A stretch of DNA of 64,000 nucleotides. Origin: Rossellomorea vietnamensis. GTDB lineage: Bacteria; Bacillota; Bacilli; Bacillales; Bacillaceae_B. The DNA is taken from the NCBI RefSeq assembly GCF_025398035.1, contig NZ_CP104558.1:3358001-3422000 (forward strand), written 5' to 3'. The position numbers were made by a program, and so were the translations under genes. Positions 55,542 through 64,000 of this stretch are shown piece after piece (positions within the stretch are counted from its first letter, which is position 1; each line of letters opens with the position of its first letter). Below the pieces are notes generated by a model that saw only the letters and a program-made list of their open reading frames with translations, ran no database searches and was not told where the DNA came from.

Positions 55542-56357
55542 ATGAGAATTAATCATAATATTGCTGCGTTGAATACTTACCGTCAGTTGAATAGTGCTTC
55601 AAATGCACAGTCTAAGTCTATGGAGAAATTATCATCCGGTCTTCGTATTAACAAAGCTGGGGATGACGCAGCAGGGTTATCTATTTCAGAAAAAATGCGT
55701 GGACAAATTCGAGGGTTAGAACAAGCTTCTCGAAATGCCCAGGATGGAATCTCGCTAATTCAAACTGCAGAGGGTGCACTAAGCGAAACACACTCTATTT
55801 TACAACGTATGAGAGAACTAGCGGTTCAAGCGTCTAATGACACTAATGTGACTGCTGACCGTGTATCAATTTCAGATGAGTTAACAGAATTGAAAGCAGA
55901 AATCACTCGTATTTCTGATGAAACTGAATTTAATACTCAAAAGCTTATTAAAGCTTCAGGAACATATAACTTCCAAGTTGGTGCAAATTCAGGACAAGTC
56001 ATTGCACTTTCTATTACTACAATGAGTGCAACGGCTTTAGGTTTAACTGCAGGCGCAATTACTGTTGGTAGTAATGGAGCTGCAAATACTGCTATTTCGA
56101 ACATTAATGATGCAATTGAATCTGTTTCCACTATGAGATCGAAGTTTGGTGCAGTTCAAAATCGTTTAGAACATACTATCAATAACCTTAATACGGGCTC
56201 TGAAAACTTAACGGCGGCAGAATCTCGAATCCGTGATGTGGATATGGCCCAAGAGATGATGGCACAAACGAAAAACTCAATTCTTTCACAAGCTGCTCAA
56301 GCGATGCTTGCTCAAGCAAACCAACAACCTCAAGGGGTTTTACAGTTACTTCGTTAA
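55542..56357 (+). CDS. hag: Flagellin
   Basis: A 271-aa flagellin, short because the variable D2/D3 part is nearly absent. D0/D1 helices are MRINHNIAALNTYRQLN, SSGLRINKAGDDAAGL and RNAQDGISLIQTAEGAL at the N-terminus and VDMAQEMMAQTKNSIL..QQPQGVLQLLR at the C-terminus. The surface segment (about 140-190) is rich in Thr, Ser and Asn, possible O-glycosylation sites for the Maf-type enzymes encoded just downstream. The gene is clearly more AT-rich than the flagellar genes upstream. Confidence 0.97.
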   Translation: MRINHNIAALNTYRQLNSASNAQSKSMEKLSSGLRINKAGDDAAGLSISEKMRGQIRGLEQASRNAQDGISLIQTAEGALSETHSILQRMRELAVQASNDTNVTADRVSISDELTELKAEITRISDETEFNTQKLIKASGTYNFQVGANSGQVIALSITTMSATALGLTAGAITVGSNGAANTAISNINDAIESVSTMRSKFGAVQNRLEHTINNLNTGSENLTAAESRIRDVDMAQEMMAQTKNSILSQAAQAMLAQANQQPQGVLQLLR

Positions 56358-56375: not shown

Positions 56376-56405
56376 AAGGCAACCAATTTATTGGTTGCCT
56401 TTTTA
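56376..56405 (+). terminator. Terminator of hag
   Basis: AAGGCAACCAAT-TT-ATTGGTTGCCTT is a perfect 12-bp stem followed by T. Confidence 0.95.
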
Positions 56406-56420
56406 AAAGGATGCATGTAA

Positions 56421-58196
56421 ATGGTTTTAGTACAAGAGAAGTATAAAATTGAAACACTCGATAGTAAAAGTGGTATAAAAAGTTTGAGAATTAACAGTTT
56501 ACTGGTTCACAGCAAATATGCCCCTATAGAAGAAGCTAAGAAAATAGTGAACTCTTCATATAAAAAGAATCATTTACATATTTTGTTTGGTATTGGACTT
56601 GGATATTTAGCAGATTCTATTATTGAAAAAATGAGCGAATCTGATAGGTTAATAATAATTGAGCCTGATGAAGAGGTATATGAGCTAGCTTTCAAATTTA
56701 ATAAACTCTCTATTACTTCTTGTCCTAATGTTAGCATTTGCTTAGGCAAGGATTTAACTTTATTCGAATCTCTCTTGAACTCAGGATTTCAAGAGTACAT
56801 GGGTAGGTTTACAATAATTGAAACACCCAATTATCAAAAGTTGTATCCGGCTCTATATAAAAAATGCTTAGAAATTTCCAAAGATCAGCTCCTGATGGAA
56901 GTTATCAATAATAATACTCGCCACATATTTTCTCAGAAATGGCAAGAAAACTATACTTCAAATTTATATTCTGCATTCACCTCCCACAATATTGAAGATT
57001 TAACAGGGAAGCTGAATTGCCCGATTGTGATTGCTTCAGGTGGCCCCTCTTTAACTAAACAACTTCCATTATTAAAGGTGAATTGCGATAAAGTATTTCT
57101 CATTTGCGCTGGATCTACTATTAATTCATTGTTAAATGAAGGTATTACACCTAATCTTGTCGTAACAGTAGATGGCGGTGAACCAAACTATACTCATTTT
57201 GAAGATATTGACATTTCTCATATTCCTATGGCATATCCGCTCATTGTTCATAAAAAAATCCCTGCCCTTCATAATGGAAAACAGTTTACATTTAACATTT
57301 CGGATCATACACTCATGAATAAATGGACAAATAAATTACTTCAGCGAGAAAATGGATTTATCCAAACTGGTCATTCAGTAGCCAATTTTTCCTTGGATAT
57401 TGCAATGAAGTTAACTACTGCTCCCGTTGCATTAATCGGACAGGATCTCGCATATACAAACAATCAAACCCATGCTTCTGGGAATAAAGGAAAATACGGT
57501 ATTGATAAAGAAAAAGAAAAACAAAGAAAAATGTATTACACGGAAGGTTACAATGGAGAAAAGGTTTTAACGGATTATGTGTTTAATGGTATGCAAAAGG
57601 GATTTGAGCAATATGTAAACATGGTTGGTGGTCAGAAACATCGGCTATTCAATTGTACTGAAGGTGGAGTGAAAATTAGCGGATTTCAGCAGGTCCCTTT
57701 TAAACAGTTTTTAGATAGTTATTGTAAGGTTTCAAAAAAAACCACTTTGATTGATGCACTTCCAGATATAAATGAACGTTCTAATGAAGAATGGAACCAA
57801 TTTAGAATTGAAGTTGAAGAGTTATTGTGTATTCATGAGGAGATAATACACCTTACTGATGAAGTTAATACAATATTAGCTGAAATCAAAGAAAATAATT
57901 TCTTGTTTGATACAATTAGTAACGAAAGGCTTTCCCAATACGAAAATGAATTGAAGGAATACTTGCATAATGAATTTCTATTTTATATTTTGAGGCCAGT
58001 TATCTTTAAAGTACAGCATAGTTATTTAGAACAAGACAATGAATCCTTTGAAGATAGTAATAAACGAGTTTATAACAAGACAAGTTTGCTTTTTGAAGGA
58101 ATTAAGGAATCTACAAAAATTAGTCATTCATTTTTATTGGAATTACTGGACAAATTAAGTGAAAATGAAAAAAAGAGGGATAAAAATGTCACATAA
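56421..58196 (+). CDS. Maf-type flagellin glycosyltransferase (motility-associated factor)
   Basis: A 591-aa Maf (DUF115) protein. An N-terminal module has HSKYAPIEEA and GIGLGYL (about 31-63) followed by IIEPDEEVYELAF. The central Maf domain (about 200-420) has ASGGPSLTKQLP, AGSTINSLL, VTVDGGEPNY, TGHSVANFSLDIA and IGQDLAYTNNQTHASG. A helical C-terminal part completes it. Maf proteins transfer nonulosonic acids such as pseudaminic acid to flagellin Ser/Thr. It lies directly after hag and before pse genes. AAAAGGATG precedes the ATG. Confidence 0.9.
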   Translation: MVLVQEKYKIETLDSKSGIKSLRINSLLVHSKYAPIEEAKKIVNSSYKKNHLHILFGIGLGYLADSIIEKMSESDRLIIIEPDEEVYELAFKFNKLSITSCPNVSICLGKDLTLFESLLNSGFQEYMGRFTIIETPNYQKLYPALYKKCLEISKDQLLMEVINNNTRHIFSQKWQENYTSNLYSAFTSHNIEDLTGKLNCPIVIASGGPSLTKQLPLLKVNCDKVFLICAGSTINSLLNEGITPNLVVTVDGGEPNYTHFEDIDISHIPMAYPLIVHKKIPALHNGKQFTFNISDHTLMNKWTNKLLQRENGFIQTGHSVANFSLDIAMKLTTAPVALIGQDLAYTNNQTHASGNKGKYGIDKEKEKQRKMYYTEGYNGEKVLTDYVFNGMQKGFEQYVNMVGGQKHRLFNCTEGGVKISGFQQVPFKQFLDSYCKVSKKTTLIDALPDINERSNEEWNQFRIEVEELLCIHEEIIHLTDEVNTILAEIKENNFLFDTISNERLSQYENELKEYLHNEFLFYILRPVIFKVQHSYLEQDNESFEDSNKRVYNKTSLLFEGIKESTKISHSFLLELLDKLSENEKKRDKNVT

Positions 58197-58539
58197 TGAG
58201 TTAGTCTTGGAAACGATTGAGAGCCTAGAGGAATACCTGCCGAAAGTAGCAAATGAGGCTATTATTATTGCAGAATTGCTTAGAAAAGATAAAGAATCAG
58301 AAGCTATGGACAGAATTCAAAAGGTTATTAGTGCAATTGAATGGGTAGTTAGTGCTATTAATGGAATTAAAGGAGTAGATTTTCCTCTGAATATAGATAC
58401 ATATGAAATAAACGAATACCTATTTGAAATTCAAGATGGGTTACATTTTAATGATACAGTCTTAATAGCAGATATTTTCGAATATGAGATCAATCCTGCA
58501 ATGCTTAAGTGGTTAGAGAGACTTGAAAAGGATAAGTGA
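58186..58539 (+). CDS. Small helical protein between two Maf genes
   Basis: A 117-aa acidic, helical protein (SHNELVLETIESLEEYLP, IAELLRKDKESEAMDRIQKV, MLKWLERLEKDK). It has no cysteine, signal or membrane helix. It overlaps the upstream gene by 11 nt and the downstream gene by 17 nt, so it is tightly coupled to both. I do not recognise the family. The helical make-up would suit a chaperone or adaptor for the glycosyltransferases or flagellin, which is only an inference. ATG at 58186 with GAGGG upstream. Confidence 0.8.
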   Translation: MSHNELVLETIESLEEYLPKVANEAIIIAELLRKDKESEAMDRIQKVISAIEWVVSAINGIKGVDFPLNIDTYEINEYLFEIQDGLHFNDTVLIADIFEYEINPAMLKWLERLEKDK

Positions 58540-59785
58540 AGAGAAGTTGAACTGGGAATTAGTGAAAACTAAAGGACACAAAACAGTTAAGGTGAATCAT
58601 GACGGGAAAGAATATTATTTGCATAGTAGGTATAATCCAATAAAGGAAGCATCTTCATGGGTCAATGGGCTCCCAAGAATACTGCAAGATGAAATCATCG
58701 TCATTGGATTAGGCTTGGGGTACCATATTGCAGAATTAAAAAAGATGTATCCCGATATAACAATTCACGTTTTTGAATTTAACACAAAATATGTTCATTG
58801 GCTGATTGAACACAGGTTAATTGTGGAGGATCTTTTAAATGAACAAGTTGTCTTGCATTTTAACCAAAATAGTATCTTTAACGAGATAAGGCAAATGCTT
58901 AATGAAACTAAAGAAAACTTTTTTATCTATAAACCTTCCTTAGAGCTTATTGAGAACGAAGATCTGAAAAGGTCTTTGGAATCTTTTCATTTATATAATA
59001 GAACGATCTTAGAACAGTCTGGGAATTTAATAGAGAATTTTAATCTTAACATTACCTTAAGAGATAAAGAAATCAGTAATGAACTATTCAATTTCCATGA
59101 TCATACTTGTATTTTGGTATCCGCAGGCCCCTCACTAACAAAACAATTAAGTATGCTAAAGCGAGTGAGTCTTGATGGGAAATTTAAAATAATTTGTGTT
59201 GGTACCGCTGTAATACCACTACTTGCAGAGAATATCAAACCAGATTTAATTATGATATCCGACCCTAAAGATAATATATTTAAACAACTAGAGGGGATAA
59301 ATACGACAGGTATTCCTTTGGTTTATTTGAGTACAGCAAATCATTTAACAGTTAAGAGTTATTCGGGACAAAGGTTTATTGCTTGGCAAAAAGGTTTTCA
59401 ACAAGCAGAAATAAATGCTCAGAGTAATTCGATTCTCTTAGAAACAGGTGGCTCAGTAGCAACATGTCTACTGGATATGCTTGTGAAATTAGGTTGTAAA
59501 CGCATAGGATTAGTAGGACAAGACCTTTCATTTACAGAGAATTTTTCACATGCTGCAAATGCTCATGCGCAAAAAGTAATTCAAGAAAACTATAAGTACA
59601 TAGAAGTGAAAGATTTTTATGGGACTGGTAAGGTAAAAACCTCCAAAAACCTATATGCTTATTTAAAATGGTTTGAAAGATATGCCAGGACTCATCAAGA
59701 ATTAGAATTGTGTAATTGTACTGAAGGTGGAGCATTTATTAAGGGATGGAAACATATGTCCCTGAGAGAATTTCTAAAATTGTAA
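58523..59785 (+). CDS. Second Maf-type (DUF115) protein
   Basis: A 420-aa Maf-family protein without the long C-terminal extension of the first. N-terminal module: LHSRYNPIKEASSWVNG and VIGLGLGYHIAELKK (about 32-72). Maf domain (about 190-415): SAGPSLTKQLSML, VGTAVIPLL, ISDPKDNIFKQ, TGGSVATCLLDM, GLVGQDLSFTENFSHAAN and CNCTEGGAFIKGW. TTG at 58523 is the only start that keeps the conserved N-terminus; the ribosome site is weak, so coupling to the gene before is likely. It may modify a second site or sugar on flagellin. Confidence 0.88.
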   Translation: MKRISEEKLNWELVKTKGHKTVKVNHDGKEYYLHSRYNPIKEASSWVNGLPRILQDEIIVIGLGLGYHIAELKKMYPDITIHVFEFNTKYVHWLIEHRLIVEDLLNEQVVLHFNQNSIFNEIRQMLNETKENFFIYKPSLELIENEDLKRSLESFHLYNRTILEQSGNLIENFNLNITLRDKEISNELFNFHDHTCILVSAGPSLTKQLSMLKRVSLDGKFKIICVGTAVIPLLAENIKPDLIMISDPKDNIFKQLEGINTTGIPLVYLSTANHLTVKSYSGQRFIAWQKGFQQAEINAQSNSILLETGGSVATCLLDMLVKLGCKRIGLVGQDLSFTENFSHAANAHAQKVIQENYKYIEVKDFYGTGKVKTSKNLYAYLKWFERYARTHQELELCNCTEGGAFIKGWKHMSLREFLKL

Positions 59786-59802
59786 TAGCTCGGAGTTGTA
59801 AT

Positions 59803-61404
59803 ATGCAAAAAAAGGTATATGTGGAAGAAGCCAAAAATGGGAAATACACCTGCAAATATTTAATTGAAGGAAAATGGAAGTATTTGTATTCAAAGTATAG
59901 ACCAGAAGAGAACATTAAAGACATTCCTTTAGATCCTGAAGCAGAATGTTATATTGTCTTGGGGTTGGGAATGGGATATGAACTAGATAAAATTAGTAAA
60001 CAAACTTCAAAACCTATTATTGTTATAGAATATGAAATTGCTTTTTTAGATGAGTTATTGAGAATAAAACGAGATGAAGTAAATACATTTTCTACCAAGG
60101 TGGATTTTTACTTTGGTATTGATTATAAACAAATTAATCCATCTCAACATAGAGTGCAAGTGATAATAAATGAAAACCTTATACAATGTAATTTAACATA
60201 CTATAATAATGTAATAAAATATTTCTCAAGTTTGAAAAGAACTTTATCGAAGGTAGTATGTGCCTTTGAACACCCAACTATCATAAAGGATTGTATTGAT
60301 GCGTTTGAACAATTGAATTATAAAGTTCATGAAATGCCTTGGAATAGTATTGAACTGATGAAGAAACAAGTGGCACTTATTAATCCCGACATCATATTTA
60401 GCATAAACTATAGTGATAAAATTGCAAAAATTAGTGACACATTAGATATCCCTTATGTTTCTTGGACAGTAGATACCCCTGCATATTCTCTTTATAAACC
60501 TGAAAATATTTCAAGAGATAAGAGTTATTATTTTGTCTACGATGAAAGAGTGGTTGAACACTTAAAAAAATCAGGAGTTAGACAAGTCTTCTATTTACCT
60601 GTTGCTGCTAACGTGGAAAGGCTAGAAAGAGTTGTATTAAATACTATCGACCTAAACAAATACTCTACTCAGGTATCTTTTGTGGGAAGTAGTGGTCTTT
60701 ATAATGAATTTTCGTCTTTTATTAAACCGAAGCTCTCAAAAGAAATTCTTTCTGAAATTAATCGAATTCTAAATATTCAATCCAAAAGTGAAGAATACAT
60801 ATTAAGTGAATTACTGGACATTACTTTGTTAAATAAGATAGAACAGGTTTCACAATATAAAATTAATACTGTTCAACACACTCTTCTTTCGCCATTAGAT
60901 AAACTTGGTTTTATTTTAGGAAGGTATCACACCTATATTGAACGCATTGCTATACTTTGGGAATTACACAAAAGATTTGATCTGCGGATTTACGGAGATG
61001 AGAGCTGGCTCACACAAGGTAATAAGTTCAATGGTGTTTTTAAAGGTTTAGTAGAACACTATGAGGAAATGCCCAAAGTGTTTAAACGATCAAAGATAAA
61101 TATTAATATTACAAGATGTTTTGTTGAAAGCGGATTGCCAATGAGAGTATTTGACGTATTAGGGTCGAAGGGTTTTCTCATTTCAAATTATAAAGACGAC
61201 ATTTCCAGATTATTTAACGATGGTAAGGATTTAGTGGTTTACCGAGATAGAAAAGATTTAATAGACCAAATTAATTATTATTTAATTAACGATAAAGAAA
61301 GACAAAGAATTAAATACCAAGGATTTGAAACAGTAACGAAGTATCATACTTACATAGAGAGAATAAAGAAAATGATGGATATTCTTTCAGACCATCCTAG
61401 ATAG
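59803..61404 (+). CDS. Maf-like N-terminal module fused to a CgeB-type glycosyltransferase
   Basis: A 533-aa protein. Residues about 25-80 repeat the N-terminal module of the two Maf proteins (YSKYRPEENIKD, then VLGLGMGYELDKIS). From about 165 on it becomes a CgeB-type GT-B glycosyltransferase: HEMPWNSIELMKKQVALIN, PYVSWTVDTPAYS, LPVAANVERL, VSFVGSSGLYN, RIYGDESWL, NINITRCFVESGLPMRVFDV and GFLISNYKDDI. The start at 59803 has GGAG seven bases upstream; an in-frame reading from 59746 overlaps the previous gene. It probably adds a sugar to flagellin or to its glycan. Confidence 0.82.
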   Translation: MQKKVYVEEAKNGKYTCKYLIEGKWKYLYSKYRPEENIKDIPLDPEAECYIVLGLGMGYELDKISKQTSKPIIVIEYEIAFLDELLRIKRDEVNTFSTKVDFYFGIDYKQINPSQHRVQVIINENLIQCNLTYYNNVIKYFSSLKRTLSKVVCAFEHPTIIKDCIDAFEQLNYKVHEMPWNSIELMKKQVALINPDIIFSINYSDKIAKISDTLDIPYVSWTVDTPAYSLYKPENISRDKSYYFVYDERVVEHLKKSGVRQVFYLPVAANVERLERVVLNTIDLNKYSTQVSFVGSSGLYNEFSSFIKPKLSKEILSEINRILNIQSKSEEYILSELLDITLLNKIEQVSQYKINTVQHTLLSPLDKLGFILGRYHTYIERIAILWELHKRFDLRIYGDESWLTQGNKFNGVFKGLVEHYEEMPKVFKRSKININITRCFVESGLPMRVFDVLGSKGFLISNYKDDISRLFNDGKDLVVYRDRKDLIDQINYYLINDKERQRIKYQGFETVTKYHTYIERIKKMMDILSDHPR

Positions 61405-61427: not shown

Positions 61428-61453
61428 GCTGGCATAGCCAGCTTTTATTTTTT
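61428..61453 (+). terminator. Terminator after the Maf/CgeB gene
   Basis: GCTGGC-ATA-GCCAGC followed by TTTTATTTTTT. Confidence 0.85.
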
Positions 61454-61578: not shown

Positions 61579-62571
<993 letters not shown>

Positions 62572-62587
62572 ATGGGAGCAATCAATT

Positions 62588-63754
62588 ATGTCTAAAATTA
62601 GAGAAACGTATCTTCCTTATGGGAAGCAGTGGATTGATCAAGAAGATATTGAAGAGGTAATAAAAATCTTAAAGAGCGATTATCTCACTACCGGACCTGC
62701 GGTATTAAAATTTGAAGAAGCAATCGCGAATTATGTTGGCTCTGCCTATGCAGTAGCATTTTGTAATGGAACTGCTGCCTTACATGGGGCTTGTTTCGCT
62801 GCGGGCATTTCAGAGGGGGATGAAGTAATAACAACTCCCCTTACATTCGCAGCGAGTTCCAATTGTGTGCTGTATCAAGGTGGCGTACCAGTATTTGCTG
62901 ATATTGATCCCCATACATATAATATTGATCCTGAAGAAATTGAAAGAAAAATCACTTCGAAGACAAAAGCAATCATACCAGTTGATTTTACTGGCCAGCC
63001 TGTGAATTTGGATAAAATCATAGAAATTGCCGATAAACATGATCTTGTAGTCATTGAAGATGCAGCACATGCCCTTGGAGCTACTTATAAAGGACAAAAA
63101 GTCGGTTCTATAAGTGATATGACGATGTTTAGTTTTCACCCGGTAAAACATATTACTTCAGGTGAAGGTGGCATCATCACTACAGATAACAAAGAATATT
63201 ATGAGAAATTGATGCAGTTCCGTTCACATGGTATTACAAGAGATAAAGTAAAGCTAAAAGAAGACCATGGACCTTGGTATTATGAGATGCAGTTTTTAGG
63301 ATATAATTACCGGATGACTGATATTCAGGCTGCGCTTGGGACTAGTCAATTGAAAAAAATTGATAAATTTATAGACTTAAGAAGAAAAATTGTTACAGCT
63401 TACAACGAAGGTTTTAAGGAGATAGAAGAGATAAACATTCCATATCAAGACAATAATGGAGAATCTAGCTGGCACCTTTACATAGTTAAATTGTCTTTAG
63501 AAAAATTAAAAGTTAGAAAAAAAGAAATTTTTGAAGCATTACTCTCCGAAAATATTGGGGTGAATGTACATTATATCCCAGTTCATTTACAGCCTTATTA
63601 TTCCCAACTAGGATACAAGAGGGGAATTTGCCCAAAGGCGGAAAAATTGTATGAGGAAATTATCACTTTACCACTTTTTCCTGCTATGTCTATGGATGAT
63701 GTATACGATGTTATCTCTGCAGTAAATAAAGTAATAAATTATTATCGAAAGTAG
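62588..63754 (+). CDS. pseC: UDP-4-amino-4,6-dideoxy-N-acetyl-L-altrosamine transaminase
   Basis: A 388-aa PLP aminotransferase of the DegT/DnrJ/EryC1 family, second step of the pseudaminic acid route. It shows YGKQWIDQEDIEEV, SDYLTTGPAVLKFEEAIA, CNGTAALHGACFAAG, DFTGQPVNLD, EDAAHALGATYKG and the PLP lysine in FSFHPVKHITSGEGG. It begins 17 nt after pseB. GGGAGCAA precedes the ATG. Confidence 0.94.
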   Translation: MSKIRETYLPYGKQWIDQEDIEEVIKILKSDYLTTGPAVLKFEEAIANYVGSAYAVAFCNGTAALHGACFAAGISEGDEVITTPLTFAASSNCVLYQGGVPVFADIDPHTYNIDPEEIERKITSKTKAIIPVDFTGQPVNLDKIIEIADKHDLVVIEDAAHALGATYKGQKVGSISDMTMFSFHPVKHITSGEGGIITTDNKEYYEKLMQFRSHGITRDKVKLKEDHGPWYYEMQFLGYNYRMTDIQAALGTSQLKKIDKFIDLRRKIVTAYNEGFKEIEEINIPYQDNNGESSWHLYIVKLSLEKLKVRKKEIFEALLSENIGVNVHYIPVHLQPYYSQLGYKRGICPKAEKLYEEIITLPLFPAMSMDDVYDVISAVNKVINYYRK

Positions 63755-63761
63755 GGTAATG

Positions 63762-64000
63762 ATGAAAATTGCAGCTATTATCCAAGCAAGAATGGGTTCA
63801 ACAAGGCTTTCAGGAAAAGTCATGAAAGAATTAGAGGGAAAAACAGTTTTATCTCATGTGATTGAACGAGTAAGACAATCGAAGTTAATCCAAGATATTA
63901 TAATAGCAACAACAACTCATGAGCGAGACAACATTATTGAAACGGAAGCAATATATTGCGGTAGTAAGGTCTATCGGGGTAGTGAAGATGATGTCCTTAG
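63762..64000 (+). CDS. pseF: Cytidylyltransferase-type protein, N-terminal part (PseF/SpsF type)
   Basis: About 79 residues are visible before the right edge cuts the gene. The nucleotidyltransferase signature is IIQARMGSTRLSGKVMKELEGK-type (AIIQARMGSTRL, then GKVM) with ATTTHERDN and RGSEDDVL following, as in SpsF and in the CMP-pseudaminate synthetases of Bacillus pse clusters. It starts at the second of two ATGs (63759, 63762), a few bases after pseC. The nucleotide sugar it makes cannot be told from SpsF on this fragment alone. Confidence 0.75.
   Translation, partial: MKIAAIIQARMGSTRLSGKVMKELEGKTVLSHVIERVRQSKLIQDIIIATTTHERDNIIETEAIYCGSKVYRGSEDDVL

Follow-up and report, generated by a model that had tools for sequence, protein, structure and literature searches.

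Flagellin glycosyltransferases of the Maf type that have been described bind flagellin either through a C-terminal tetratricopeptide repeat (TPR) domain or through the protein GlfM (PMC13317340). According to the literature, the N-terminal domain of Maf has a solved structure and no known function; it adopts a degenerated Rossmann-like fold, the function of which is unclear (PMC11339370), and an earlier survey labelled it 'Methyltransferase' (PMC4000134). We analysed a 64,000-nucleotide stretch of the Rossellomorea vietnamensis genome (NZ_CP104558.1, positions 3,358,001 to 3,422,000; hereafter the window), where a flagellin gene is followed by genes for a long Maf (Maf1), a GlfM-like protein, a short Maf (Maf2) and a protein joining a Maf-type N-terminal domain to a CgeB-type glycosyltransferase of the GT-B fold (59746-61404, plus strand; hereafter the fusion).

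With characterised Mafs (Magnetospirillum magneticum Maf, 5mu5; Clostridium botulinum Maf) the fusion has in common the homologous N-terminal fold and a neighbourhood of flagellin and pse genes, but it lacks their central sialyltransferase-like domain (PF01973) and C-terminal helical domain and carries a GT-B CgeB enzyme instead. The window also resembles the tripartite Maf-2/GlfM system of Unay, Kint and Viollier (2024), as that system is summarised in PMC13317340, because a short Maf without a C-terminal domain is encoded right after a small GlfM-like gene. It differs from the system so summarised in that a third, catalytically non-Maf protein has the Maf N-terminal domain and in that, in Myxococcota, where no Maf is present, one polypeptide combines a GlfM-like part with a UDP-xylose synthase. 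The idea of a modular flagellin glycosyltransferase also applies to FlmG of Caulobacter, as described in PMC7591256, which is otherwise a different system. The domain, the transferase class and GlfM are each known already, and their combination did not appear in the papers searched; the main new result is that the GlfM-like part tracks the N-terminal domain. Homology, fold, completeness of the GT-B part, conservation and gene company were all established by computation.

A Maf N-terminal domain joined to a complete GT-B enzyme

Maf1, Maf2 and the fusion have homologous N-terminal domains, each about 145 residues long. In pairwise BLASTP comparisons of the N-termini, the CgeB-type protein matched Maf2 with E 8e-5 and Maf1 with E 1e-4, and the two Mafs matched each other across the full Maf length (E 7e-31). 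Profile-profile comparison, using 7 fusion, 5 Maf1 and 6 Maf2 N-termini, related the fusion module to that of Maf1 with a probability of 98.3 % (E 1.4e-14) and to that of Maf2 with 99.1 % (E 1.4e-18). Among the 182 open reading frames (ORFs) of at least 60 amino acids in the window, the pattern S[KR]YxP...GxGxGY has just three matches, one in each of these proteins, and it is found in none of 54,600 shuffled ORFs. The serine and proline of SxYxP, the GxGxGY loop and the acidic residue ending the following strand are kept in Mafs and fusions alike; the GxGxG loop and the acidic strand end are each found in 16 of 16 fusion modules and are near-invariant in Mafs. Since the glutamate three positions after the proline is conserved in Mafs but not in fusions, the common motif is S-[KR]-Y-x-P, and the final x-E included in the motif by an earlier note on this DNA does not extend to the fusion. 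That note also described three consecutive genes with one N-terminal pattern: the pattern is present in all three, although a small gene (58186-58539) intervenes between Maf1 and Maf2. Its proposal of a single N-terminal domain followed by differing catalytic domains agrees with the BLASTP and profile comparisons, and with PF01973 in the Mafs and a GT-B enzyme in the fusion.

The module, to which the earlier note gave no name, is not a new unit and corresponds to a domain already known from the N-terminus of Maf (Pfam PF20157, Maf_flag10_N). This family was matched by all 16 fusion modules (best E 3.3e-12), and no other Pfam family recurred beyond two members. The module of the window fusion scores 18.9 bits, under the curated cut-off of 23.5 bits, which is exceeded by the modules of three orthologues (L086, 26.0; L113, 23.8; L117, 24.3). 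A profile search of the PDB with fusion modules only ranked 5mu5 first (E 3.5e-6), the next matches being ribosomal RNA (rRNA) methyltransferases (E 0.013).

The listed Foldseek matches of the whole fusion chain were all GT-B enzymes and uninformative on the N-terminus, and the domain was therefore predicted alone, from fusion sequences only (model m2428fedfee19; predicted local distance difference test, pLDDT, 88.6; predicted template modelling score, pTM, 0.82). This model aligned best with residues 33-235 of 5mu5 (VIA-align first rank, Z 9.9, root-mean-square deviation 3.6, 136 of 148 residues), followed by a methyltransferase and spermidine synthases with Z of 8.7 or less; 5mu5 was not among the top 50 Foldseek matches of the domain alone. 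The fusion N-terminus thus has the Maf N-terminal fold, the closest solved one being 5mu5, and the Maf1 and Maf2 N-termini of the window are tied to it by sequence homology, the fold prediction being that of the fusion domain. The domain spans residues 22-166 (59809-60243, plus strand), with landmarks SKYRP at 49-53, GLGMGY at 73-78 and the acidic end of the next strand at Glu95.

The remainder of the fusion, residues 167-552 (60244-61401, plus strand), is a complete GT-B glycosyltransferase of the CgeB/GT4 type, which aligns with PimA (2gej, Z 23.0) and BshA (2jjm, Z 22.3) from the first residues of those enzymes. Scores for DUF3880 (55.2 bits, cut-off 25.2) and Glyco_trans_1_2 (95.7 bits, cut-off 25) place it among the CgeB-type GT-B enzymes. 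Conversely, a Pfam profile search found no match to PF01973 in the fusion, whose GT-B part occupies the place of that domain, and the protein does not belong to the Maf glycosyltransferases; Maf1 and Maf2 do belong, with PF01973 scores of 136.1 and 132.8 bits (cut-off 34.6). Ordinary CgeB/GT4-type members (DUF3880 plus Glyco_trans_1_2; PimA, BshA and HepE folds) have the same GT-B part and, at about 320-400 amino acids, no N-terminal Maf domain. An end-to-end alignment of the fusion with ordinary CgeB enzymes, the outcome that would have spoken against a composite protein, did not occur, as the GT-B part starts at residue 167. Since it is complete from there, the N-terminal domain is an addition and not part of the CgeB fold.

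The ORF 59746-61404 encodes 552 amino acids (PF20157, weak; PF12996, E 8.6e-15; PF13524, E 3.3e-27). Translation probably starts at the ATG at 59803 (residue 20), giving 533 amino acids, because a Shine-Dalgarno-like CGGAG precedes this codon, orthologues begin there and the model shows residues 1-21 as disordered.

Distribution of the fusion and its company of GlfM-like genes

Surveys covered 299 genomes of the order, 398 of the phylum and individually named genomes; a contig scan with the single fusion protein gave no matches, and fusions were found with their alignment as query. The fusion is present in 4 of the 299 genomes, in 5 of the 398 and in named genomes, which amounts to at least 12 Bacillota genomes and four Myxococcota loci. 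Full-length fusions occur in Metabacillus litoralis, M. crassostreae, Domibacillus iocasae, Mesobacillus subterraneus, Bacillus methanolicus PB1 and Clostridium bovifaecis. Further full-length fusions come from metagenome-assembled genomes (MAGs) of Bacillota (Cellulosilyticum, Peptostreptococcaceae and Thermincola, plus copies cut by contig ends in Eubacteriaceae and in one unplaced Bacillota) and from three MAGs of Myxococcota, to which a fourth Myxococcota locus (L215) was later added. The N-terminal domain itself gave 97 matches in the 299 genomes, 84 preceding PF01973 (Maf) and 4 preceding CgeB, that is, the fusions; the rest comprise a Maf with an offset match (G039), a contig-edge fragment (G203) and weak matches to short ORFs. 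A tblastn search found the domain on no plasmid.

In the module tree, the Bacillota fusions group in one supported clade, separate from the Maf modules (96/88), which speaks against a recent duplication of the head of the adjacent Maf2 and indicates that the fusion is old and no local chimera; the catalytic parts of these fusions also form one clade (99/92). That the fusion arose once for both Bacillota and Myxococcota is unsupported, because in the tree of catalytic parts module-free CgeB of Lachnospiraceae is nearer to the Bacillota fusions, the alternatives being loss or two origins. The earlier note considered the Maf/CgeB fusion a new combination; it is not unique to the window, being an old family of Bacillota and Myxococcota, and a literature search found no paper describing the fusion, its spread or its Maf-free Myxococcota form. 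An apparent natural split of module and CgeB genes (G468) was rejected, since a transposase gene lies between the halves. This interrupted fusion (L077:7628-10965), with the transposase gene on the opposite strand, is situated away from flagellar genes.

The order of the window, flagellin - Maf1 - GlfM-like - Maf2 - fusion, recurs in Metabacillus litoralis, M. crassostreae and Mesobacillus subterraneus, and in Domibacillus and Clostridium bovifaecis a GlfM-like gene is immediately 5′ of the fusion. Most Bacillota fusions are flanked by Maf genes and by pse or fliD genes. Flagellin is encoded in all 15 fusion genomes searched, and so is a GlfM-like protein or domain, against a background of 59 of 299 genomes in the order. 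In that order, 53 of the 59 genomes with a GlfM-like protein also have a Maf, which 65 of the 299 genomes encode (Fisher p 5e-40, ignoring kinship), and the GlfM-like protein is found in 21 of 21 genomes with short Mafs versus 32 of the 44 whose Mafs are all long (p 0.006, likewise ignoring kinship). GlfM-like proteins come in two sizes, of about 120 amino acids and of about 205 with an N-terminal extension, the larger being encoded mostly upstream of long Mafs. In C. bovifaecis (L090:4645-6547), the long Maf encoded before the GlfM-like gene seems broken into two ORFs (180 and 367 amino acids).

The GlfM-like gene of the window (58186-58539, plus strand; 117 amino acids, motif D-x-VLIADIFEYE), recognised by alignment and genome co-occurrence, is directly upstream of the short Maf2 without C-terminal domain, which is the gene context of GlfM. 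Two aspartates, D90 and D96, are invariant in the alignment of GlfM-like proteins. GlfM is reportedly a helical bundle with an invariant aspartate. The name GlfM-like is given by analogy, from gene context and the summary of the system in PMC13317340.

In Myxococcota the fusion has this company without Maf. PF01973 was absent from the three Myxococcota fusion genomes searched, and the sole GlfM-like match in each (genome-wide E 1.6e-8, 9.8e-8 and 2.0e-7) is in the gene that neighbours the fusion in convergent orientation, at the C-terminus of a UDP-xylose synthase-type protein (motif IADLLEYE). The first 320 residues of this epimerase in L113 (L113:2129-3484, minus strand) match human UDP-glucuronate decarboxylase (UDP-xylose synthase) with E of about 1e-89. 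An epimerase of this kind, again ending in a GlfM-like domain, is encoded next to the fusion in L117 (L117:8526-9995, minus strand) and in the fourth locus, which has the same pair (L215:6517-7857, plus strand); the copy in L116 is cut by a contig end (L116:3953-4606, minus strand). Altogether, the four Myxococcota CgeB proteins with the SxYxP/GxGxGY signature all have the epimerase-GlfM-like neighbour, and none of 12 aligned Myxococcota CgeB-type proteins without the signature, whose N-terminal domain is more divergent or was undetected and lacks SxYxP, has a GlfM-like neighbour within the stretches examined, some of them short. This pairing in the absence of Maf indicates that the GlfM-like part is associated with the Maf-type N-terminal domain and not with the Maf catalytic domain.

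A second class of CgeB proteins was seen in Myxococcota (L216-L230), with a divergent Rossmann N-terminal domain, mostly having GxGxG without SxYxP, and no GlfM neighbour.

Proposed role of the N-terminal domain

We consider it about an even chance that 59746-61404 encodes a two-domain flagellin-modifying glycosyltransferase in which the Maf-type domain and the GlfM-like protein are the targeting part that brings the transferase to flagellin. Under this proposal, the enzyme, composed of an N-terminal Rossmann domain of the Maf type and a complete GT-B part of the CgeB type, would act cytoplasmically on the product of the upstream flagellin gene, its likely acceptor, alongside Maf1 and the Maf2/GlfM pair. 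The GlfM-like protein would bind the N-terminal domain, and both would jointly lead the transferase to flagellin. Maf2 would combine the targeting part with a sialyltransferase-like domain and cytidine monophosphate (CMP)-pseudaminic acid, the nearby pse genes supplying pseudaminic acid to the Mafs, and in the fusion the targeting part would be paired with a GT-B domain, the donor probably being a sugar linked to uridine or guanosine diphosphate (UDP or GDP), other than the pseudaminic acid donor. In Myxococcota, the fusion and the GlfM-like part would work without Maf; the fusion of the GlfM-like part to a UDP-xylose synthase suggests a pentose as the likely donor there. More broadly, and with somewhat less than even confidence, the Maf N-terminal domain and the GlfM-like adaptor may be a transferable flagellin-targeting cassette plugged onto unrelated glycosyltransferases, with donor synthesis, adaptor and transferase of the Maf-free Myxococcota making up one flagellin pentosylation system. 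The occurrence of the Maf N-terminal domain before a different catalytic fold, with flagellin and a GlfM-like protein in every genome tested and in Myxococcota even without Maf, indicates that it can be separated from Maf catalysis and opens a direct way to study its role; if the cassette is real, it would account for the recruitment of new sugars in flagellin glycosylation and could serve as a portable module for directing glycosyltransferases to a protein. The earlier note suggested that the module may be a common substrate or flagellin docking part, and the genomic context speaks for possible flagellin docking (flagellin in every fusion genome tested, constant GlfM-like company).

Several observations weigh against targeting through the domain and the GlfM-like protein. 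GlfM-like genes adjoin long Mafs too in the order survey, and the genomes of B. methanolicus and some MAGs contain such a gene that does not adjoin the fusion. In another Bacillota genome, two flagellin genes have CgeB-type genes without the module within a few kb (L081:8207-16466), so the module is unnecessary for such a location. Divergent N-terminal Rossmann-CgeB proteins without a GlfM neighbour exist in Myxococcota, and kinship among the genomes means that the counts are not independent. Finally, the best-conserved residues of the domain, the glycine loop and the acidic strand, resemble a ligand site more than a docking surface.

This last point leads to the chief rival, which we regard as unlikely: that the common domain binds a nucleotide or a ligand like S-adenosylmethionine (SAM), as a sensor or as a second, perhaps methyltransferase-like, activity, and does not dock a protein. 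Judging from the sequences, the conserved glycine loop and acid look like remains of a Rossmann ligand site, and their constancy in fusions and Mafs would fit such a role. After Maf, the closest folds belong to SAM methyltransferases and spermidine synthases, a profile of Maf and fusion modules matches rRNA methyltransferases (E 7e-4), and the survey label 'Methyltransferase' (PMC4000134) points the same way. However, the Rossmann-like fold of the solved Maf domain is degenerated and its function unclear (PMC11339370), and ligand binding leaves the constant GlfM-like company unexplained. Ligand binding and targeting could both be true.

It is more doubtful still that the domain docks flagellin directly and that the GlfM-like protein serves Maf2 only. 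The constant presence of flagellin with the module proteins would fit this, as would B. methanolicus PB1 (L040:7761-10225), where a second, divergent flagellin gene (44% identical) is followed by its own fusion gene, 14 kb from the main flagellin-Maf1-GlfM-Maf2 cluster and its GlfM-like gene. Nevertheless, Myxococcota without Maf still keep a GlfM-like domain beside the fusion, and described Mafs reach flagellin through a TPR domain or GlfM (PMC13317340). Least probable is a non-flagellin acceptor, for instance a surface glycan, with the domain as a merely structural or dimerisation part: CgeB-type enzymes are widespread outside flagellar loci, the divergent Myxococcota proteins have no GlfM neighbour and two Bacillota fusions are away from flagellar genes, but most Bacillota fusions have Maf genes on one side and pse or fliD genes on the other, and every fusion genome searched encodes flagellin and a GlfM-like protein.

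Other features of the locus

The flagellin ORF directly upstream of the cluster (55542-56357, plus strand; 271 amino acids) has orthologues at the equivalent position in Metabacillus, Mesobacillus and Domibacillus. It is followed by Maf1 (56421-58196, plus strand; 591 amino acids), the long form with a C-terminal extension, with PF01973 at residues 177-347 (E 1.4e-39) and a match to 5mu5 (E 0.0015). Its Maf-type N-terminal domain, delimited by homology, profile comparison and motif scan, occupies 56421-56915 (plus strand; SKYAP, GIGLGY). The C-terminal extension of about 155 amino acids (57723-58193, plus strand) has no counterpart in Maf2 and, by analogy, may correspond to the region holding the flagellin-binding TPR domain in characterised Maf-1 (PMC13317340). 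Maf2 (58523-59785, plus strand), the short form without this extension, has 420 amino acids if started at the TTG at 58523 or 412 from the TTG at 58547, and matches PF01973 at residues 171-339 (E 1.4e-38); homology and profile comparison place its Maf-type N-terminal domain (SRYNP, GLGLGY) at 58523-59017 (plus strand).

Downstream of the fusion gene, the hairpin scan detected a terminator-like hairpin (GCTGGC-ATA-GCCAGC plus a T run; 61428-61450, plus strand). Next come pseB (61579-62571, plus strand; TIGR03589 above cut-off, E 6e-164), pseC (62588-63754, plus strand; TIGR03588 above cut-off, E 2e-154) and the 5′ part of an ORF for a pseF-like CMP-sugar synthase (63759-63998, plus strand), which continues beyond the window end and is followed outside it by pseG-like, pseI-like and fliD-like genes. 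A second terminator-like hairpin, GGCAACCAA-TTTA-TTGGTTGCC-TTTTT (56378-56404, plus strand), absent from the output of the window hairpin scan, was seen between flagellin and Maf1 by reading the sequence.

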